IMG/VR virus record: IMGVR_UViG_3300036828_000615
Span: 64,001 to 86,870 of that record
Reading direction: 5' to 3' (one strand)
Length of the DNA: 22,870 nt
From: a virus
Shown: positions 480-21,135 of the stretch, piece by piece
Layout: every line of letters starts with the position of its first letter
How positions within the stretch are numbered: the stretch's first letter is position 1
Notes under the pieces: model-generated
Database searches by the model: none
Told to the model about the DNA's origin: nothing
What the model saw: the letters and a program-made list of their open reading frames with translations, nothing else
Translations under genes and position numbers: made by a program

Positions 480-1016
480 CTACCCACTCTGCGAGAGCAG
501 CTCGATCAACTCAGCCTTGCGCGCGGTGGAAGGGTACTCGACGCCGCGTTCCTCCAGCTGCGCCTTGAGTTCGGCGACCGTGAACTCCCCGAGGTCTTCC
601 TCGTCGTCGTCGGCCTCCGGCTCAGGCACGGGCTCGGGCTCAGGCTCGGGCTCAGGCTCGGGCTCGGGCTCCGGCGAGGTCTGCCAGGCGCGAGTGGCGC
701 CGTCGGGCAGGTCCTCACCCGCGTCGTGGTCGACGACATCGACATCCTCCATCAGCTCACCGGTGGCCTTGTCGACCAGGATGACGTCGTCGTCGTCGTC
801 GGCCACGTCACCTTCCAGCGCGGCCGCCATCGCGGCCAGGTGCTCGGGCACCTCCTGGCCCAGCGCCTCGAACAGCTCAACCTGGCGCCGGACGGCCAGT
901 GCGCTGGCCGCCACCGGATCGCGCACGAACACACCGCCCTTGGGCGGTGCCGCGAGCCGGCCGAATTGACCGCTGGAAACCTCGGCCTCGGTGTGATCCT
1001 TACGACCAACGGCCAT
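480..1016 (-). CDS. Head protein with Glu-Pro linker and C-terminal SAP/HeH-like domain
   Basis: A 178-residue acidic protein starting with ATG at 1016 behind AAGGAGGTAGCG. Residues about 1-65 hold a compact segment (QFGRLAAPPKGGVFVRDPVAAS). An Asp-rich run follows near 72-77, then a low-complexity EPEPEP linker around 115-135. The last about 35 residues (FTVAELKAQLEERGVEYP...KAELIELL) have the leucine spacing of the SAP/HeH/Rho-N type helix-extended-loop-helix fold, which binds nucleic acid or other capsid parts in other families. Such domains recur in small head proteins encoded between capsid and connector in actinophages. It could be a minor head, decoration or head-completion protein; which one cannot be told from sequence. 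Confidence 0.65.
   Translation of the reverse strand: MAVGRKDHTEAEVSSGQFGRLAAPPKGGVFVRDPVAASALAVRRQVELFEALGQEVPEHLAAMAAALEGDVADDDDDVILVDKATGELMEDVDVVDHDAGEDLPDGATRAWQTSPEPEPEPEPEPEPEPVPEPEADDDEEDLGEFTVAELKAQLEERGVEYPSTARKAELIELLSQSG
619..672. repeat. Short tandem repeat encoding the Glu-Pro linker
   Basis: A degenerate 6- and 12-bp tandem array built from GGCTCG and GGCTCA units lies inside the head protein gene. On the minus strand it reads as alternating Glu-Pro codons. Such arrays can expand or contract by slippage in steps of two residues without breaking the frame. Confidence 0.75.
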
Positions 1017-1061
1017 CGCTACCTCCTTGGGCGCCTGAGCGGAGATTACCGCCGGGAGGTG

Positions 1062-1274
1062 TCAGAGGGGCGCAGGTGCGGGGCGTGTCCGGAGAAGATA
1101 GTCGACCAATCCCAGCAGCCGCTCAACATCGTCATCGGCCATACCGAGAGCAGTATTGCACTTACCGCAGAGCAATCCGCGGACCTCGCCGGTCTCGTGA
1201 TCATGATCGACGTGCAGCCGCTTACCCCGCTCCTCCGACTCCTTACCAGTCGGCCACAGCCCCGGCCTGTTCAC
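1062..1274 (-). CDS. Truncated endonuclease VII-like (HNH/His-Me finger) nuclease
   Basis: A 70-residue ORF with a GTG start carries the core of the recombination endonuclease VII family: [21 protein letters not shown] at residues 20-40, followed by the usual [17 protein letters not shown] helix. The HVDHDH stretch is the catalytic beta-beta-alpha motif. C36 and C39 are the second zinc-binding Cys pair. The family normally has an earlier Cys-x2-Cys pair and about 30-60 more N-terminal residues, which are absent here; an in-frame TAA lies six codons before the GTG. A short ATG ORF in another frame (1271-1327) contains two cysteines and ends with TGA overlapping this GTG. The gene therefore looks like a degraded or frameshifted homing nuclease placed after the capsid gene. 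Activity is doubtful. Confidence 0.6.
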
Positions 1275-1310
1275 GCAGGCGCGGGGTCTTTACTGCAACC
1301 TACTACGCAT

Positions 1311-1346
1311 ACCGAGCGGCCACCCATTTCTGAGTGGCCGCTCGGT
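1311..1346. terminator. 13-bp perfect hairpin after the capsid gene
   Basis: ACCGAGCGGCCAC (1311-1323) and GTGGCCGCTCGGT (1334-1346) form a perfect 13-bp GC-rich stem with a 10-base loop, 15 bases beyond the capsid stop codon. There is no T-run on either side, as is common for actinobacterial terminators. It may end or attenuate capsid transcription, or stabilise the 3' end of the capsid mRNA. Confidence 0.7.
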
Positions 1347-1361
1347 CCTAAAACGTTGGAT

Positions 1362-2813
1362 CTAGAAAGTGGGCGCGGTCAAACCCGTGATCTCGACCAC
1401 GCTCTGCGGATATCGGCCGGCCGAAAATGCTAAGTAATTGTAGATTTGGAGCAGCACGGTCAGATTTTGCGCCTTGGTCTCGGGCAGCACGCGCGCCCGG
1501 ATCCCGCTCTCCCAGAGCACCAGGTCGGAAGTACGCGCGACGATGATGACGTCGTTCGTACCGGCCGCGGTGCCCACGCCCGCCGTGGTGGTGATGTTCG
1601 GGTCGGTCACGACCGGCAGCCCGTGCATCTGGCCCACGACCTGCTGGCTGGCGACCTCCTCGAGGATGCCCGCGGCGTTGAACGGGTTGTTGGCCGACGG
1701 CAGGAACAACGGGCGCTGCTGACCATCCAGCAGGGACAGGAACCAGCCCCAGCGCCGGGGGTGCATCACGATCACCTCGGCCGGCAGGAAACGGGTCGTG
1801 TGGATCGTCTGGATGGCGTTGGCGATCGCGGAGTACACGCCCTGAATCGTGACCGCCGAGGCCGGCACGGTACCGATGCCCGGCGTCTTGTCGACACCGA
1901 GTACCTGACCGCTGACGCCGGTGCCACTCAGCACCTGCTGGTCGGTCGAGGCGGCGTGCGCGGCGACCAGGTCGCGGAACACGACGTCGTCGAAGGCGAT
2001 CGGGCTCTGGTCGATCAGCTGGATCGAAACCCCTTGCGCGCCAGCCAGAGTGCACACCGGCGCGTTGATGAAGGTGTCGGTCAGATCGACGTCCACCACC
2101 GGCACGTTGTCGGCGGTCTGGATACCGACCGCGGTACCGGTCAACAGCTTGGGGATGTTGATGCTGTCGGTTCCACCGGGCAATGGTTGCCGCTGCACGA
2201 GATTGGCGAAAGCCCTACCGGGACGGGCCAATTCGACGTACTGGTCCATGAGCCAGGCGGGTGGGACCGCATATCCGCCGGAGCCGTCGACCCGGGAGAG
2301 GTCGCGGTACTCCTTGTACTCGTCGAGCGTGGCGACGTCCTGGGCGTGGCGGAACAGCCGCTCGCGGCTGGACCCGTCGTAGTCGATGTTCATCTGGTGC
2401 CTGATGAGGTCGTTGACCCAGGACCGCTGTCGATTGCCCTTGGTGTAGATGGCCTGTTCCTTGACCGATACCAGGCTGTTGGTCGCCTTGCGGATACCGG
2501 CCAGGTTCTTGGCGATCTGCCCGGTGCGCTCCACCTCGGAGCGAACCTCGTCGATGCGTTCGTCGAGGCCGATGATCTCGGCGCCCTCGCTGCGCATGTC
2601 CTTCATGTAGCGGCGGTACTCGCCGTCTTCCTCGGGCTCGAGGTCCTCGCGGCCCTGCTCGCGGGCGAGCAGCAGTACCGCTTCGGCCTTCTGCTGGCTG
2701 CGGGCGCGCTTCTCGGCCGTGGCCTCGCGCCGCTTGACGAGTTGGCTCAGGAAGTCTTCCAGGCCGCTGGAACCGACACCGGTGTCCAGGCGGCTTTCAA
2801 GCATCTCGGTCAT
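1362..2813 (-). CDS. Major capsid protein, HK97 fold
   Basis: 483 residues, ATG at 2813 behind AAGGA. Residues 1 to about 118 are charged and strongly helical (KRREATAEKRARSQQKAEA, DERIDEVRSEVERT), like the coiled-coil scaffolding delta domain of HK97-type capsids that the prohead protease removes. The shell domain follows: SGGYAVPPAWLMDQYVELARPGR near 178-200, the TDSINIPKL strand, the internal DQQVLSGTGVSGQVLGV segment with its Gly-rich turn, the ANAIQTIHTTRFLPAEVIVMHP spine helix and strand, and the C-terminal LPVVTDPNI...RTSDLVLWESG region. Family knowledge predicts self-assembly into hexamers and pentamers of an icosahedral head. Neighbouring protease and portal genes agree. The exact cleavage site was not determined. 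Confidence 0.95.
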   Translation of the reverse strand: MTEMLESRLDTGVGSSGLEDFLSQLVKRREATAEKRARSQQKAEAVLLLAREQGREDLEPEEDGEYRRYMKDMRSEGAEIIGLDERIDEVRSEVERTGQIAKNLAGIRKATNSLVSVKEQAIYTKGNRQRSWVNDLIRHQMNIDYDGSSRERLFRHAQDVATLDEYKEYRDLSRVDGSGGYAVPPAWLMDQYVELARPGRAFANLVQRQPLPGGTDSINIPKLLTGTAVGIQTADNVPVVDVDLTDTFINAPVCTLAGAQGVSIQLIDQSPIAFDDVVFRDLVAAHAASTDQQVLSGTGVSGQVLGVDKTPGIGTVPASAVTIQGVYSAIANAIQTIHTTRFLPAEVIVMHPRRWGWFLSLLDGQQRPLFLPSANNPFNAAGILEEVASQQVVGQMHGLPVVTDPNITTTAGVGTAAGTNDVIIVARTSDLVLWESGIRARVLPETKAQNLTVLLQIYNYLAFSAGRYPQSVVEITGLTAPTF

Positions 2814-3015
2814 GACGAATCCTTAATGAGGGTGCGATCAGATGGGGGCGTGGCCCGAACTGGGCGGATGGCTCGTCACCGCTCCGGCCCGTTTGGTGGG
2901 TTCGTCACCGGCACCTGGGGCACTCGGTCGGCGTTCCGGCGATCGGTTGTACGCGCGGGAACAGACCTGCCCGTGATTATGCAACCAGGACGCCGCCGGT
3001 GTGAGCCGACACGCC
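2814..3015. other. Non-coding gap between capsid gene and small head ORFs
   Basis: About 200 bases hold no ORF with convincing codon use or start site on either strand. The capsid ribosome site lies at its left end. No clear sigma-70 promoter is visible, although the gap after a hairpin would be a natural place for a capsid-specific promoter. Confidence 0.4.
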
Positions 3016-3035
3016 GGTGCCCGAATTTGGGCACC
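3016..3035 (-). terminator. Hairpin directly after the 49-residue ORF
   Basis: GGTGCCC and GGGCACC pair as a perfect 7-bp stem around a GAATTT/AAATTC loop, starting at the base after the TGA of the upstream minus-strand gene. There is no T-run. It lies at the boundary between the protease/portal genes and the capsid gene, so it may act as a partial terminator or RNA-processing signal. Confidence 0.5.
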
Positions 3036-3185
3036 TCATCGCGCGGTCCACATCATCCACCACGGCGGGCGCCAGCCCGGCCATCGTGCCGAGGCGAGAT
3101 AGGCGTCGATCTGCTCCTCGGTCCAGCCCTTTCCGCGCAGATAACCCGCCTTCTCGGCGCTGGCCTGGGCCAGGGCCTCGTTCAT
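3036..3185 (-). CDS. Small hypothetical protein (49 aa)
   Basis: ATG at 3185 follows GGAGGAG, and the ATG overlaps the TGA of the gene before it (TGATG), so translation is likely coupled. The product begins MNEALAQASAEKAGYLRGKG, continues with WTEEQIDAYLASARW, which resembles a short helical module, and ends in a Trp/Pro-rich tail (PGWRPPWWMMWTAR). No family is recognised. Position between protease and capsid suggests a head-assembly accessory role, but this is inference from context only. Confidence 0.6.
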   Translation of the reverse strand: MNEALAQASAEKAGYLRGKGWTEEQIDAYLASARWPGWRPPWWMMWTAR

Positions 3186-3355
3186 CACTCCTCCGGCGGC
3201 GGCTTAGCGGCCTCGTCGCGCTCATGCGCCAGCTGAGGCTCCAGCGCGGGATCGGCGGCCAGCCGCTCCTGGTCGGTCTTCGCCAGGTCGGTGTCGTGGC
3301 CCGGTTCGCCCGGTTCCTGCGCGTCGCCGGGGTCGTCGATGGGGGTGTCGGTCAT
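3185..3355 (-). CDS. Small acidic hypothetical protein (56 aa)
   Basis: ATG at 3355 is preceded by GAGAGGGA at a usable distance. The product starts MTDTPIDDPGDAQEPGEPGH and ends AAKPPPEE. It is highly charged, Pro-rich and probably disordered. Its TGA overlaps the ATG of the next small ORF. It lies between the protease and capsid genes, where small scaffold or decoration proteins are sometimes found. No family was recognised and function is unknown. Confidence 0.6.
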   Translation of the reverse strand: MTDTPIDDPGDAQEPGEPGHDTDLAKTDQERLAADPALEPQLAHERDEAAKPPPEE

Positions 3356-3367
3356 TTCCCTCTCTCC

Positions 3368-5056
3368 TTAACTCGCTTTGGTCTTGGGCTGCATGGTGTC
3401 GGCGAAGCCGGACTGGCGGATCACGGCCAGCCCTTCGGAGACCTTGATCGTCTTGGGCTCGCCGAACTCGGCGCGCAACTCCTCGAGCCTGCGAGTCACG
3501 TCGGTGTCAGTGGGCGCGCTGGCCTGCAGATCGCGGATCTGGCGGCGGGCCTTGGCCAGCATGGTGCGCAGATCCTTGTCGCCCTCGGCCATGTTGTAGC
3601 AGGTGACAATGGTGGCTTCCAGCGCCTTGGCCAGGCCGAGGTCCAGGCCCAGCTCCTGCTCGTGCTCGTCCTCGTCGCAGTCCTCGTTCTCGCCGATGGC
3701 GCCCTCGGCGTCGGTACCGGCGTAGTCGTCCATCTCCGAGTGCGCGTCGGGCATCCCGCGCCGGCCCTTCTTCTCGTCGTCGTCGCCCTCGCGGCCGCCG
3801 CCCTTCTTGAACGGCTTGGCCTGCTTGTCGGCGAAGTCGCGATCCTCGTTGTCGTTGCAGGACTCGTCGTCGTCGTGCTCGCCGTCGCAGCTCGCGTCAT
3901 GCCCGCGGTCGGCAATCTCGTCAATCATCGCGTGTTGCTCCTTGTCGTATTCCTCGTCGTGCGGGTCCAACGGCCAGTCGGTGGGCCGCCAGACATAGGG
4001 AGCGCCCTTGAAGGCCGTGCCCCGCTTGGCCGAGGGCAGTTGCACCTCGCTGCCGTCCTGCAGGACCGCGACCAGCATGGTGCCACCCGCCGCGTCGGGC
4101 CGCAGGTCGATGTGGTCGACACCGCTCAGCGTCTTGGATTCGTCGACCGTGATGCCGAACGACTTGGCCGCCGACCGGAGCTTGCCCATGATCGCGGACT
4201 GCTGCTCGGAGGTGTAGCTGCCTTTGTTCTGGGCGAAGCGCGCCAGCGCGTTGCGCACCCGGGCGGCGGAGTTCAACGGGTACCGCTTCACGCCGTTACC
4301 CTCCTTGGCGGGCTTGCCCTTGCTGTCCAGGTAGCCCGGGTCGGCGAAGGTGGAGACCCCGGAGTACTTCTTGGGTGTCGACGCCCGGATCGTCGCCTTC
4401 AGCACGCCCATCGCCCGCTCCACCTGATCGCGGTCCATCTTGCGCAGCTCAACCAGGTCGTTGTTCGACAGCTGGGCCAGCGCGGAGACCGCCTCGGTGG
4501 ACAGCATCGCCGCCGTGTTGGGATTGGCGCCGTAGTTGACCACCGACACGTCACCCTTCTGCAGGTTGATCTCGGTGATGGTGCGCCGGGTGTAGGAGTC
4601 GTCCCATTCCTGGCCGTTGTTGGCCACCCGGAACGCGAAGCTCATCTCGTCCATATCGCCGCGGCGCATCTTGGGCATGAGCCGCTGCACGTCGGGGTCG
4701 GTCGGGTCCAGCGTGGCGCGCACCAGCAGCCCGTGCGGGTCGGTCGACAGGCTCATGGTGCCGCTCTTGGTCCGGGCCAGCGGCAGCCCTTCGTGGTTGA
4801 GCAGCAGCTGCACGTCGGGACTGGTGGACAACGTACGGTCGAACGCGCGGGTGTGGATCGACTCGTCCCAGCCCCCGCCGGTCGGACCGCCGTACACCGG
4901 GTAGGGCTGATCGAAGGTCGCCGCGTAGCCCTCCAGGATCACCTGGGGACGCTCGCCGTCGTTGCGGTATTCGTAGTGCAGCGGCTGCGCCATCCGGCGC
5001 TGCTCGCGCACGTCGAAGATCTTCGCCCGGAAGCTGTAGTCGGTGGCGGTGGTCAT
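3368..5056 (-). CDS. Prohead maturation protease with long acidic C-terminal extension
   Basis: 562 residues, ATG at 5056 behind AGGAGGAATC. Residues 10 to about 190 match the HK97-family prohead serine protease: LEGYAATFD near 41-49, the catalytic-type His in LLLNHEG (H88), the catalytic-type Ser in DEMSFAFRV (S139), and the GDVSVVNYGANP strand after it. The mature enzyme would cut the capsid delta domain inside the prohead. After residue about 230 comes a second module (KKYSGVSTFADPGYLD, RVRNALARFAQNKGSYTSEQ) resembling a helical domain seen after phage and bacterial proteases. A very acidic Asp/Glu-rich tract lies near 385-470 and a helical tail (ALEATIVTCYNMAEGDKDLR) ends the protein. The protein is well over twice the usual 180-220 residues, so the extension may serve as scaffold. 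Confidence 0.88.
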   Translation of the reverse strand: MTTATDYSFRAKIFDVREQRRMAQPLHYEYRNDGERPQVILEGYAATFDQPYPVYGGPTGGGWDESIHTRAFDRTLSTSPDVQLLLNHEGLPLARTKSGTMSLSTDPHGLLVRATLDPTDPDVQRLMPKMRRGDMDEMSFAFRVANNGQEWDDSYTRRTITEINLQKGDVSVVNYGANPNTAAMLSTEAVSALAQLSNNDLVELRKMDRDQVERAMGVLKATIRASTPKKYSGVSTFADPGYLDSKGKPAKEGNGVKRYPLNSAARVRNALARFAQNKGSYTSEQQSAIMGKLRSAAKSFGITVDESKTLSGVDHIDLRPDAAGGTMLVAVLQDGSEVQLPSAKRGTAFKGAPYVWRPTDWPLDPHDEEYDKEQHAMIDEIADRGHDASCDGEHDDDESCNDNEDRDFADKQAKPFKKGGGREGDDDEKKGRRGMPDAHSEMDDYAGTDAEGAIGENEDCDEDEHEQELGLDLGLAKALEATIVTCYNMAEGDKDLRTMLAKARRQIRDLQASAPTDTDVTRRLEELRAEFGEPKTIKVSEGLAVIRQSGFADTMQPKTKAS

Positions 5057-9386: not shown

Positions 9387-11171
9387 CTAGTGCCCGACCG
9401 GGAAGCCGTAGTCGACCAGCGGTCGCTCTCCGGCTTCCCGCAGCGCCAGGATATGGCGCATAAGCCATTGTCGCCCGTTGGCGTTTCGATAGGGCTTCAT
9501 CAGTGCTTCGTTGCGGGCGATGTCGCGATCCCAGCCCGGCGAGTCGGCCTTGGCGTCGTGGTATTCGCCGGCGTTGGTGTTGTGCTCGAACGCGTAGACA
9601 TTGCCCTCGATGCGCTTGAGCCTCGACAGCGTCTGCACGATCGCGGTGAACGCGGTGTCCTCCCAGCCCCAGCCGCAGTTGCCGGTGAAGTACACCTTGC
9701 CGTTGCGCCGGGCCAGCCATGTCCCGTTCTCAGTCGTCGGGCACCACACGATTCCCTCGACCTGGTGACGCGTGTGTGTCCCCTTGGACAGCATGAACCG
9801 GCGTTGACGTCGGATCGACACGACGGTCATGCCGTAGCCGTACTTCGTCATAACCGGCCTGGTCACCGACGAGGTGGCATAGCCAGCCAGGATGCACGCG
9901 AACTGGAATGACTCAGCGGCAGCTTGGTTCTTCTGGGCCAGCTGCTGCTCATAGGACCGGGTCCGGGTGTGACCGTCAGCCCAGAGGGAGGTCTGGATGA
10001 AAGATTCCAGCTGAGACTGGGTGAGCGATATCAGGAACTCGTGGGTGACCACCCGGTTCGGGGCACAGGACTGGACGAGAGCACCGGCTTCAGCGTTGAG
10101 GTTGAAAATGGCGGTCTGCCCCGCACGGGTTTCCCGCCAGGCTGGAGGTACTTCGGGCGAGCGGCCCGACCGTCGCTGTGCGCCTATCGGTGGCCCCAGT
10201 GATCGACGCAGTGCCGAGCGGATCCTTTCGCAGTGGTCCGGGTTGACGGTTACCGACTGGCTGATCGAAACGGTTCTCGCCCGGGAGCCGTCCCGGTTCC
10301 GGGAGATGCAGCCCTCGGTCCAGAACCAGCCCACTAACTCCACGAAAGCGTCGGTGTATTTCGGCTCCGTGGGCAGGTCCGAGCAGTGAGCAGCGGTCGG
10401 AACGTAGTCCTGCTGCTGGAAGGTTCCCGTCGTAGTCCACGTCCGACGGGTCCGTCGGAATGATCTCTTGCCAACCTGGCGGACGTTCCAGTTCCGCTCG
10501 ACCGGCCAGCGGTGATCCATCGTGCTCAACGAGGAGTGGGTCTTGCTTTCGATCCCGACCATCTCCCGGCTACCGGGGTAGACGTTCACCCGCTGAAGCG
10601 GTTTCCATTCGCTCATAGCCGTGTCGTGGTTCAGGGTTAAGACAGGCTCACCGATAGTGATATCGGTATATCGCTTCCAGCCCTGACTGGTCAGAATCTC
10701 GGTGGGCTCATCCACGCAGAACTCCGGCGGTTGCCCGCCCAGACGCCAGTACTCGGTCTGGGTGGCGACCAGACAGCCACCCACCCCGTTGACCCCGTCA
10801 CCGTCCCAGGAGGTGGTCATGTAGGGCGCCCGGTCCAGCTGGTCGAACGGCGTATAGAGGTAGTCGGTGCTCAGAATGCGGTAGTGGGTGAAGGGCCAGC
10901 AGACGCACTGCTGCGGGTCGGCGACCGCCGCGCGCACATTGTCGAGCACGGGAATCGTGTCGGCGTCGCAGATCACCACGACCTCGGTGCGGGCCTTGCG
11001 CACCGCGTTGTTGCGGGCCTGGGCGAGGCTGAAGATCTCGGTGTCTGAGTCGGCGGTGACCACCGGCCAGCCGACCTGCTCCCAGAACGCCATCACCCGC
11101 TCGAAGATCGGGATCCGCGACGGGGACGGGCGCCACGGAATGCACACGGTGGCTTCAGGTTTCGTGGACAC
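9387..11171 (-). CDS. Glycosyltransferase (GT-A, DxD) interrupted by an intein
   Basis: 594 residues from GTG 11171, which has GAGG six bases upstream; an ATG at 11177 is possible. The host protein is 247 residues after removing the intein. Residues 1-151 give a GT-A fold: VCIPWRPS, then VVVICDADTIP with the metal-binding DAD at 69-71, then VNGVGGCLVATQTEYWRLGG. After the intein comes CGWGWEDTAF, the GW-x-ED acceptor motif of polypeptide-GalNAc-transferase/Glyco_transf_7C-like enzymes. The N-extein ends PPEF and the C-extein starts C, so splicing restores PPEFCGWGWED. The start overlaps the upstream GT gene by 17 bases. Likely substrate is a nucleotide sugar, with a virion protein or a glycan as acceptor; acceptor unknown. 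Confidence 0.88.
   Translation of the reverse strand: MSTKPEATVCIPWRPSPSRIPIFERVMAFWEQVGWPVVTADSDTEIFSLAQARNNAVRKARTEVVVICDADTIPVLDNVRAAVADPQQCVCWPFTHYRILSTDYLYTPFDQLDRAPYMTTSWDGDGVNGVGGCLVATQTEYWRLGGQPPEFCVDEPTEILTSQGWKRYTDITIGEPVLTLNHDTAMSEWKPLQRVNVYPGSREMVGIESKTHSSLSTMDHRWPVERNWNVRQVGKRSFRRTRRTWTTTGTFQQQDYVPTAAHCSDLPTEPKYTDAFVELVGWFWTEGCISRNRDGSRARTVSISQSVTVNPDHCERIRSALRRSLGPPIGAQRRSGRSPEVPPAWRETRAGQTAIFNLNAEAGALVQSCAPNRVVTHEFLISLTQSQLESFIQTSLWADGHTRTRSYEQQLAQKNQAAAESFQFACILAGYATSSVTRPVMTKYGYGMTVVSIRRQRRFMLSKGTHTRHQVEGIVWCPTTENGTWLARRNGKVYFTGNCGWGWEDTAFTAIVQTLSRLKRIEGNVYAFEHNTNAGEYHDAKADSPGWDRDIARNEALMKPYRNANGRQWLMRHILALREAGERPLVDYGFPVGH
9678..10718 (-). mobile_element. Intein with LAGLIDADG homing endonuclease (347 aa)
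   Basis: Starts at Cys1 (TGC, 10718-10716) in CVDEPTEILT, the block A form. Block B is HSSLSTMDHRW with the TxxH histidine. Two dodecapeptide motifs of a DOD endonuclease are present, FVELVGWFWTEGC (about 125-137, Glu) and SFIQTSLWADGHT (about 239-251, Asp), separated by about 100 residues. Block F is VWCPTTENGTWLARRNGKVY and block G ends FTGN followed by extein Cys+1 at 9677-9675. The last Asn is preceded by Gly instead of the usual His, a tolerated variant in some inteins. All splicing and cutting residues otherwise look intact, so the element is probably active and mobile. Confidence 0.93.
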
Positions 11172-11835
11172 CGTCATCCTCGTCGTGCACGTACTTCCAC
11201 ATCCCGGGCCCGGCCGGACGCCGCCACACCGAGTGGATCGTCGGCACGTCCACCAGTGTGTAGCCGGCGGCCACCAGCGCGAAGGACTCGTAGACGTCGG
11301 CGCCCCAGTGCGCGTAGGGGCCGTGGATGTCGGGCGGATAGGGGACCGCGCGCAGCGCCTCGATCCGCGCCGCGAACACCCCGCCCTGGATGTGCAACTC
11401 GGGCAGCGCGGAGTCAAAGCCCATCGCGGCCGGCGGACCCGCGTCGGCCAGCGTGCCGGTCATCCCCGCCCTCGGGTTGTTGATCAGCGGCGTCAGCAGA
11501 TCCCAGGGCCAGCTCGGGTCGTAGCTGTGGCCGTGGTTGGTGCAGACGTAGAGCAGGTAGGGATGGCGCGCGAGCTCGGCGGCCACGTTCAGCGCCGGCC
11601 CGCTTTTCAGGTTCGCCCCGCGCTGCCAGCGGTAATGCGGTTCGCACACGCCGTTGTCGTACACCGCCGTGGCCAGCTTGTTGGCGCGCCGCGTGCTGTT
11701 GTCGATGACGATCAGCTCGGCGTCGAGCTTGTGGCGCAGGTGTCCCAGCGCGGGCACCAGGTCGCGCTGCAGCCGGACCAGGGCCCGGTCCTCGTTGTTG
11801 TGCACGATCATCACCGCGCTGACCCCGAACCTCAT
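11155..11835 (-). CDS. Glycosyltransferase family 2-like protein
   Basis: 226 residues from ATG 11835, which overlaps the stop of the methyltransferase gene (ATGA). The start MRFGVSAVMIVHNNEDRALV and the ELIVIDNSTRR strand-turn near 40-50 are typical of the nucleotide-binding half of GT-A enzymes. The middle YLLYVCTNHGHSYDPSWPW stands where a DxD would be expected, but no DxD is present there. The later HIQGGVFAARIEALRAV and HWGADVYESFALVAAGY segments resemble the acceptor half. It may be metal-independent, or act with its neighbours on the same glycan. It overlaps the intein-bearing GT downstream, suggesting one operon. Confidence 0.75.
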   Translation of the reverse strand: MRFGVSAVMIVHNNEDRALVRLQRDLVPALGHLRHKLDAELIVIDNSTRRANKLATAVYDNGVCEPHYRWQRGANLKSGPALNVAAELARHPYLLYVCTNHGHSYDPSWPWDLLTPLINNPRAGMTGTLADAGPPAAMGFDSALPELHIQGGVFAARIEALRAVPYPPDIHGPYAHWGADVYESFALVAAGYTLVDVPTIHSVWRRPAGPGMWKYVHDEDDGVHET

Positions 11836-19615: not shown

Positions 19616-19774
19616 ATGGCAAATGCGGAGGTGTGTCGGCACTGCGGCGAACCCATCCTCAAATTCAACTTCCGCGACCAGGGCGAGCAGTGGTGGCACG
19701 CCAACCCGCTGCGCGGATCCACCACCTATCTGCACTGCGCCGCCGACATTGACCGGCCCAGGGCCGCGCCGTGA
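19616..19774 (+). CDS. Zinc-knuckle miniprotein (52 aa) upstream of DNA methyltransferase
   Basis: ATG 19616 begins MANAEVCRHCGEPILKFNFR, with a C-x2-C knuckle at 7-10, then QWWHANPLRGSTTYLHC with a third cysteine and histidines that could complete the site. The TGA overlaps the methyltransferase GTG start (GTGA), so the pair are translationally coupled. Similar Cys-His mini proteins occur in actinophages near DNA-modification genes; role unknown. Confidence 0.65.
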   Translation: MANAEVCRHCGEPILKFNFRDQGEQWWHANPLRGSTTYLHCAADIDRPRAAP

Positions 19775-21135
19775 AGCCCTACTACCACGACGATCAGCTC
19801 ACCCTGTACCACGGCGACGCCCTGGCCGTAGCGCGCGAGCTGCCCGATCGCGCCGTGGACTGCATTGTCAGCAGCCCGCCGTATTACGCGCTGCGTGACT
19901 ACGGCGACCCCGGCCAGTACGGGCTCGAGGACACCCCGGCCGATTATGTGGAGCACCTGCGCGCGCTGTTTTTCGAGCTGCGCCGGGTGCTGGCCGCCGA
20001 CGGGACCTGCTGGCTGGTGCTGGGCGACAGCTACAGCAGCAGGAAGGGCGCGGCCGCCGACGACAAGAACCTGATGGGCATGCCCTGGCGGGTGGCTCGT
20101 GCGCTGCAGCAACCGCAGTACGTCGGCAAGATTCACAATGAAGCGGACCGCGCGTGGCTCGCTGCGATGGTCGACGGTGAAGGCTGCATCGCCATGCATC
20201 GCCGGATGTCTGAAGAACGTAAGCGACCGACCTTCGCGCCGGTGGTCCAAGTGGCTAACACCAATCTGGGATTACTTGAACGCTGCCAACAGGTAGCGGG
20301 CGTTGGGACAATCTCGCATAGCGACCGCGGGCGGAACCGGCGCATTTATCGCTGGTGTGTAATGAGTAACCAAGCGCGTCAACTACTTCGCGAGCTATAT
20401 CCGCACCTAATTGCCAAACAACCGCAAGCTCGCGCCGCGGTAGCCGCATCGTGCGGGGGTGGCCGCTGGGGAGAATCGTCGCCCGGCGCGGAGCGCGCAT
20501 GGTTAGAGATAAAGGCCCTCAACAAGGGCGGCACGCATGATGGCGGATGGCCCGTCCCGGCCAGCATGTTCACTCCTGGATGGATTTTGAGAAATGCCAT
20601 TATTTGGTCGAAGCCCAACACGATGCCCGAGTCGGTCACCGACCGGCTCGCCTCGCGCTACGAGCACGTGTTCCTGTTCGCCAAGCAGCAGCGGTATTTC
20701 TTCGACCTCGACGCGATTCGCGAAGCGCATTCGCCGATCACACTGGACCGCTCGGCGCGTTCGGAGCGCAAACCGTATTCGGCCCGCGGCAGGAGCGGGA
20801 TGGCCAAGGTCCCCGGCCTGGGCGCCTACGGCGCGATCTCGGCGGGCAGGCGCACCCTCAACGAGGCCGGCGCCAACCCCGGGGACGTGTGGTCGGTCCC
20901 CACCGAGAAATTCCCCGGCGCGCACTTCGCCGTCTATCCCGTGGCGCTGGCGCAGCGCGCTATTTCCGCCGGGTGTAAACCCGGCGGAGTCGTATGCGAT
21001 CCGTTCAACGGCAGCGGTACCACCGGGCTGGCCGCCCAGAAAACCGGGCACCACTACATCGGCATCGACATCAGCCGCGACTACCTGGACCTGGCCCTGA
21101 GCACGCGCTTGAGCCAGGCCGCCCTGGACTTCTGA
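19771..21135 (+). CDS. DNA methyltransferase (N4/N6 class) with homing-endonuclease-like insertion
   Basis: 454 residues, GTG 19771. The catalytic SPPY (motif IV) is at 35-38 in VSSPPYYAL. AIIWSKPNTMPESV (276-289) and RYEHVFLF follow, and the SAM motif DPFNGSGTTG is at 410-419, with GIDISRDYLDLAL after it. This order (IV before I) is the beta class that methylates cytosine N4 or adenine N6. Without residues 116-269 the protein would be a normal 300-residue phage MTase reading ...ALQQP then GWILRNAIIW. It may protect phage DNA from host restriction. No cognate nuclease gene is beside it. The 3' end overlaps the convergent gene by 55 bases. Confidence 0.88.
   Translation: MKPYYHDDQLTLYHGDALAVARELPDRAVDCIVSSPPYYALRDYGDPGQYGLEDTPADYVEHLRALFFELRRVLAADGTCWLVLGDSYSSRKGAAADDKNLMGMPWRVARALQQPQYVGKIHNEADRAWLAAMVDGEGCIAMHRRMSEERKRPTFAPVVQVANTNLGLLERCQQVAGVGTISHSDRGRNRRIYRWCVMSNQARQLLRELYPHLIAKQPQARAAVAASCGGGRWGESSPGAERAWLEIKALNKGGTHDGGWPVPASMFTPGWILRNAIIWSKPNTMPESVTDRLASRYEHVFLFAKQQRYFFDLDAIREAHSPITLDRSARSERKPYSARGRSGMAKVPGLGAYGAISAGRRTLNEAGANPGDVWSVPTEKFPGAHFAVYPVALAQRAISAGCKPGGVVCDPFNGSGTTGLAAQKTGHHYIGIDISRDYLDLALSTRLSQAALDF
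20116..20577 (+). mobile_element. In-frame LAGLIDADG-type insertion in the DNA methyltransferase
   Basis: About 154 codons inside the MTase gene that are absent from the basic enzyme plan. The block starts QYVGKIHNEADRAWLAAMVD, and AWLAAMVDGEGC is a LAGLIDADG dodecapeptide with the acidic Asp/Glu. TFAPVVQVANTNLGLLERCQ, GVGTISHSDRGRN and YRWCVMSNQARQLLRELYPH follow, as in single-motif LAGLIDADG domains. There is no Cys/Ser first residue, no TxxH block and no terminal Asn, so intein splicing is unlikely. Codon third positions use more A/T (TTA, GTA, CTA, AAT) than the rest of the gene, suggesting separate origin. Boundaries are estimates. Confidence 0.75.

Follow-up and report, generated by a model that had tools for sequence, protein, structure and literature searches.

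How does a homing nuclease persist inside a coding gene when nothing appears to splice it out? The usual view is that such nucleases can persist within genes only if splicing removes them, in the manner of introns and inteins. The question is raised here by a stretch of viral DNA of 22,870 nucleotides (hereafter the window), in which the gene of a beta-class N4/N6 DNA methyltransferase (MTase) has a LAGLIDADG block built into its reading frame. Portal, prohead protease and capsid genes are present on the same virus contig, which has 86,870 bases.

A LAGLIDADG block within a phage methyltransferase

The gene starts with GTG and is free of internal stops (Table 1). Its match to the Pfam family N6_N4_Mtase (E = 6e-44) is split into two pieces that flank the block, and motif IV (SPPY, residues 35-38) precedes motif I (DPFNGSGTT, in the C-terminal part), which is the order of the beta class. 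Alignment with nine insertion-free homologues revealed that the window protein is longer by a net 154 residues between ALQ(Q) and GW, the junction reading ALQ-xD-GW in the homologues versus ALQQ-block-P-GW in the window, and the insert lies in the loop between the helix ending in ALQ and the strand GWYLRxDIIW. The first-pass annotation, made from the letters alone, had described a 154-codon in-frame LAGLIDADG block splitting an MTase, and its coordinates proved correct to within one codon against this alignment. Insertion-free homologues are abundant, the closest being gp54 of Xula, which is about 67-69% identical to the host part of the window protein. Among the 499 cultured-phage records that match the window MTase, none covers 80% of the reading frame and hence none has the block, which excludes that every homologue carries it.

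Table 1. Features of the MTase gene in the window; the borders of the insert are approximate.
Feature	Position	Strand	Basis or remark
Whole reading frame, beta-class amino-MTase with LAGLIDADG insert	19771..21135	+	454 aa plus stop
N-terminal MTase part, residues 1-114, with SPPY (motif IV), ending in ...WRVARALQQ	19771..20112	+	alignment
LAGLIDADG insert including linkers, residues 115-269, net gain 154 residues	20113..20577	+	alignment, phrog_5046, I-CvuI, Foldseek, GC3
LAGLIDADG motif AWLAAMVDGEGC, with E137 at the catalytic acidic position	20152..20187	+	E/D in 38/38 site-A inserts
Lys216 of YPHLIAK, invariant in the site-A insert family	20416..20418	+	38/38; alignment with I-CvuI
C-terminal MTase part, residues 270-454, with GWILRNAIIWSKPN-MPESV and DPFNGSGTTG (motif I)	20578..21132	+	Pfam, alignment

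The block matches phrog_5046 (E = 2.6e-18) and I-CvuI (E = 3.6e-5). An AlphaFold2 model of the whole reading frame, based on an alignment of 37 homologues, reached a mean pLDDT of 85.9 and a pTM of 0.81, with most residues of the block at pLDDT 87-98. When the model was compared with the PDB using Foldseek, the block retrieved I-CvuI and I-CreI (E about 1e-7, TM by target length 0.64-0.70 in most matches) and the MTase part retrieved the beta-class enzymes M.BceJIV, M.RsrI, CcrM and M.PvuII. The model thus predicts an I-CvuI/I-CreI-like LAGLIDADG domain inside an intact MTase. The motif of the window insert reads WLAAMVDGEG and is the only one in the chain. Alignment columns show E or D at the acidic catalytic position, and the Lys of YPxLxxK, in all 38 inserts of the family described below (site A); in the window this Lys aligns with a Lys in the equivalent segment of I-CvuI, and its counterpart in I-CreI is presumably K98. 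I-CreI works as a dimer and, with one motif per chain, the insert should by analogy act as a dimer as well. PHROG and several GenBank records label such proteins 'HNH endonuclease', a label that motif and fold contradict. Two instances are phrog_5046 itself and gp061 of CcrRogue (L012, 3010-3450), which are in fact LAGLIDADG proteins (YLAGLIDGEGC).

Codon usage, splicing signals and selection

GC3 is 64.3% in the block, whereas the two host halves reach 87.6% (Fisher p = 1.5e-8); this bears out an earlier impression of A/T-richer third positions, and it is lower in insert than in host in 30 of the 38 relatives. The block begins with Pro-Gln, ends with Pro and is followed by Gly at position +1; its sequence has no Cys, Ser or Thr at position 1, no terminal Asn and no +1 nucleophile, and no Hint-like fold was present among the listed Foldseek matches of the window model. 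The first-pass annotation was therefore right that the intein blocks are absent, and we rejected an intein. It had also proposed a group I/II intron with its ORF fused to the exon, which fared less well: no Rfam intron match was found in the window at E <= 5 or in 20 relatives at Rfam gathering scores. The intron was likewise rejected, also because in 38/38 an open and conserved coding frame spans the insert from end to end, which leaves no space for a ribozyme core.

Sixteen of the 38 site-A inserts, including that of the window, have no in-frame start codon between the junction and the motif, and in the others the start codons in the linker differ in place. Separate internal translation of the nuclease was thus rejected as a family rule, and those 16 cases make its translation within the MTase fusion probable. 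The two closest usable insert pairs gave dN/dS values of 0.13/1.36 and 0.09/1.0, i.e. about 0.1 (synonymous sites are saturated in most of the other pairs), which indicates strong purifying selection on the insert. As for the hosts, 32 of 38 have an SPPY-type motif and 36 of 38 an FxGxG motif, both of which are found in the window, and the hosts lacking one of them may represent contig ends, ORF ends or broken genes. From the conserved motifs and the model we infer that the MTase tolerates the insert.

Related inserts at four methyltransferase sites

Relatives were sought by scanning IMG/VR with LAGLIDADG alignments, and the ORFs around the matches were then examined with HMMs; an exact-pattern protein scan of IMG/VR with the insert alone gave no match. 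Almost all of the sequences most closely related to the block proved to lie within MTases. A homologous insert is found at the identical position (site A, host column 135) in 38 distinct MTases: that of the window, 36 from the uncultivated viruses of IMG/VR and one from a gammaproteobacterial MAG (L169). These inserts have 141-182 aa, are always in frame and have the borders ALQx/PYYTG...EP/GW, with family-wide linkers that read P-Y-Y-T-G-x-I at the start and E-P at the end. Site-A inserts were absent from cultured phages in three queries of 50,697 phage records, and from the plasmids in PLSDB. Site A falls at the 90th percentile of conservation along the MTase, and highly conserved stretches are the usual homing sites.

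Other MTases carry an insert elsewhere: at site B (host column ~175, after the stretch HEYVFLLSK) in five cases (L015, L017, L024, L126, L128), at site C (after GTVWLNIGS) in one (L023) and at site D (host column 33, after DPPY...KxWD) in five (L010, L011, L014, L093, L161), the latter being of the mycobacteriophage Taj/Wee/Mantra type. With 38 + 5 + 1 + 5 cases at four sites, the initial suspicion that the layout belongs to a wider class is supported.

LAGLIDADG domains were also seen outside MTases. In L033 (1739-3064, + strand) a nucleoside deoxyribosyltransferase-like domain (PF05014) carries one, fused in frame at its C-terminal side, and three free-standing viral proteins (L064 833-1930, L077 1360-2286 and L089 2087-2974) have two tandem LAGLIDADG motifs, like duplicated single-motif domains.

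Histories of inserts and hosts

In a tree of host MTases with the insert removed, whose deep branches are poorly resolved, the site-A label amounts to 26 changes among 136 rows, at least nine of which are forced by well-supported branches, and to 18 changes in a pruned tree of 69 rows. Grouping of all site-A hosts in one clade is rejected (p-AU 3.8e-6). The window MTase clusters with that of Mycobacterium phage Xula, which is empty (support 99), and 21 of the 38 site-A MTases have an insert-free nearest host relative (empty-site MTases were sampled by similarity to an empty-site query, and their counts are not an occupation frequency). In the insert tree, site-A inserts amount to one change with the linker and three with the core only, versus about 31 for shuffled labels. 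The site-A inserts thus form one to three lineages with scattered hosts; a strict single origin is not secure, given the three changes without the linker and the closeness of the site-B inserts.

Mantel tests gave a rho of 0.63 for the N-terminal versus the C-terminal host part (matched or exceeded in 0 of 2000 permutations), and of only 0.15 and 0.13 for the insert versus the N-terminal and C-terminal host parts, respectively. Close inserts (85% aa identity) are found in hosts of 59-63% identity; in the pair L101/L103, for example, the inserts are 85% and the hosts 63% identical in amino acids, and nucleotide identity is 0.76 in the insert versus 0.54-0.62 in the flanks. No near-identical pair of an occupied and an empty MTase was found, the closest such pairs being 67-74% identical. 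Phage MTases are often transferred and recombine, which weakens the tree contrasts, although the correlation between the two host parts still holds. By trees, AU test and Mantel tests alike, the site-A inserts have the allele-specific lineage spreading among diverged hosts that characterizes homing elements. Intein and intron alleles show comparable decoupling from their host genes, and the decoupled histories fit a mobile element, as would be expected of a selfish element spreading from gene to gene. The 'fixed' fusion contemplated in the first-pass annotation is, accordingly, not the best reading.

Discussion

We consider it quite probable that a putative homing endonuclease spreads from one phage MTase to another with no need of splicing, the enzymes tolerating it as a domain in a loop. 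The loop of the orphan phage MTase would house a single-motif LAGLIDADG homing endonuclease of the I-CreI/I-CvuI kind, which would be translated with the enzyme and retained in it, neither an intein nor an intron removing it. The fusion protein would dimerise, each chain contributing one motif, and the dimer would cut the uninterrupted MTase gene of a co-infecting phage or prophage at the ALQ/GW codons, with repair from the occupied copy spreading the insert. The MTase would stay functional, the insert occupying a tolerant loop, and the linkers seem adapted to permit folding. Whether the adaptation has gone further could be answered either way with equal confidence: splice-free homing elements may have become permanent extra domains of phage MTases, their linkers being fine-tuned so that the enzyme stays active and a single polypeptide being both a working MTase and a self-spreading nuclease; the loops colonised in the MTase fold would then number at least four.

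LAGLIDADG folds bind DNA, and the strong purifying selection on the insert, together with its family-wide linkers, could also be expected of a domesticated, immobile module serving as an extra target-recognition domain of the MTase. We regard this as unlikely since insert and host histories are decoupled, many close homologues lack the insert, the same kind of domain occurs at four different places of the MTase, and the acidic residue retained in 38/38 is required for cleavage and not for binding. Less likely still is a bifunctional methylase-nuclease that would methylate its own genome and cut those of rivals, in the manner of a restriction-modification system or of a weapon for inter-phage exclusion. 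Both predicted activities do reside in one chain with conserved motifs, and the inserts recur in MTases, although the deoxyribosyltransferase-like fusion has a different host; LAGLIDADG enzymes, however, recognise long targets, and restriction-modification systems are not known to include them, as was argued in PMC9957025. Neither of these two readings explains the decoupled histories. We find it very hard to believe in a spliced element, be it a group I/II intron with an exon-fused ORF or an unknown kind of intein: an in-frame homing endonuclease with sharp borders at a conserved site is indeed the usual habit of introns and inteins, but the insert has neither an Rfam intron match nor splicing nucleophiles, its +1 residue is Gly, its whole length is conserved coding frame in 38/38, and its model shows only the homing endonuclease fold, with nothing Hint-like among the listed matches.

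Systems close to that of the window have been described. A lone LAGLIDADG homing endonuclease was reported in the Taj_79/Wee_78/Mantra_64-type methylases of mycobacteriophages by Gosselin et al. 2023 (PMC9957025), and its lack of a supporting splicing element was repeated later (PMC11855218). This Taj-type insert was found in nine cluster-F phages and judged to be vertically inherited, and an intein and the ShiLan domain were mapped to other methylase sites (PMC9957025). It resembles the window insert in being an in-frame LAGLIDADG domain of ~140 aa in a phage amino-MTase, with neither intein nor intron detected and with related inserts (phrog_5046), but its MTase is a paralogous one and its site differs, directly following DPPY, KxWD (column 33 versus column 135). 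The site-A class is far wider and deeper, and is decoupled from its hosts. The apparent vertical inheritance of the Taj type, the closest published case, counts against a mobile reading of site A (PMC9957025). The ShiLan domain, an out-of-frame HNH according to Arsenault et al. 2025 (PMC11855218), is likewise an insert in a phage methylase with a homing-like distribution and no splicing found, although its nuclease is hidden in another frame and that of the window is in the MTase frame. The function of the class had been thought not to be described. This stands for site A, since we found no published report of the class or its spread in an incomplete coverage of the literature, but not for lone LAGLIDADG domains at another site, known from the Taj type (PMC9957025, PMC11855218).

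More distant systems share single aspects. I-CreI and I-CvuI have the same fold, motif and conserved acidic and Lys positions, but are made as stand-alone proteins by self-splicing group I introns. In rps3-HE, a two-motif homing endonuclease is fused to a ribosomal protein and not inserted in an enzyme loop. As in the window, this LAGLIDADG enzyme is in frame with an unrelated host protein (PDB 6bda, 'Ribosomal protein 3/homing endonuclease-like protein fusion'). Phage inteins containing homing endonucleases also place a LAGLIDADG domain in frame in a conserved phage gene with a sporadic distribution, but have the protein-splicing domain that is absent from the window insert.

If our reading is correct, tolerance of a loop can replace splicing, as illustrated by a widespread lineage that moves among diverged phage MTases; such a splice-free lineage would be a plausible intermediate in intein evolution, and the fusions would be natural bifunctional methylase-nucleases, which is directly testable.

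Some further genes deserve mention on their own account. The phage of the window has a glycosyltransferase-like ORF (9387-11417, - strand; weak PF10111 match) with an intein recognized by eye, CVDEPTEILTSQGWKRYTDITIGEPVLTLNHD ... VYFTGNC, and two weak LAGLIDADG-like motifs. In Gordonia phage Lennon (L298), a MuF-like capsid gene (944-4054, - strand) has an apparent intein, also by eye, and a 236-aa LAGLIDADG ORF lies opposite to it (2360-3070, + strand), the nuclease being apparently antisense to its own intein; Sitar, Nordenberg and Thing3 have the same LAGLIDADG match beneath their MuF gene. Finally, gp85 of Gordonia phage Getalong (L297, 2116-2979), annotated as a DNA methylase and of the C5 type by sequence, is followed by another gene called methylase and contains a LAGLIDADG ORF (2342-2935) in another forward frame, similar to the out-of-frame HNH of ShiLan but from a different nuclease family.
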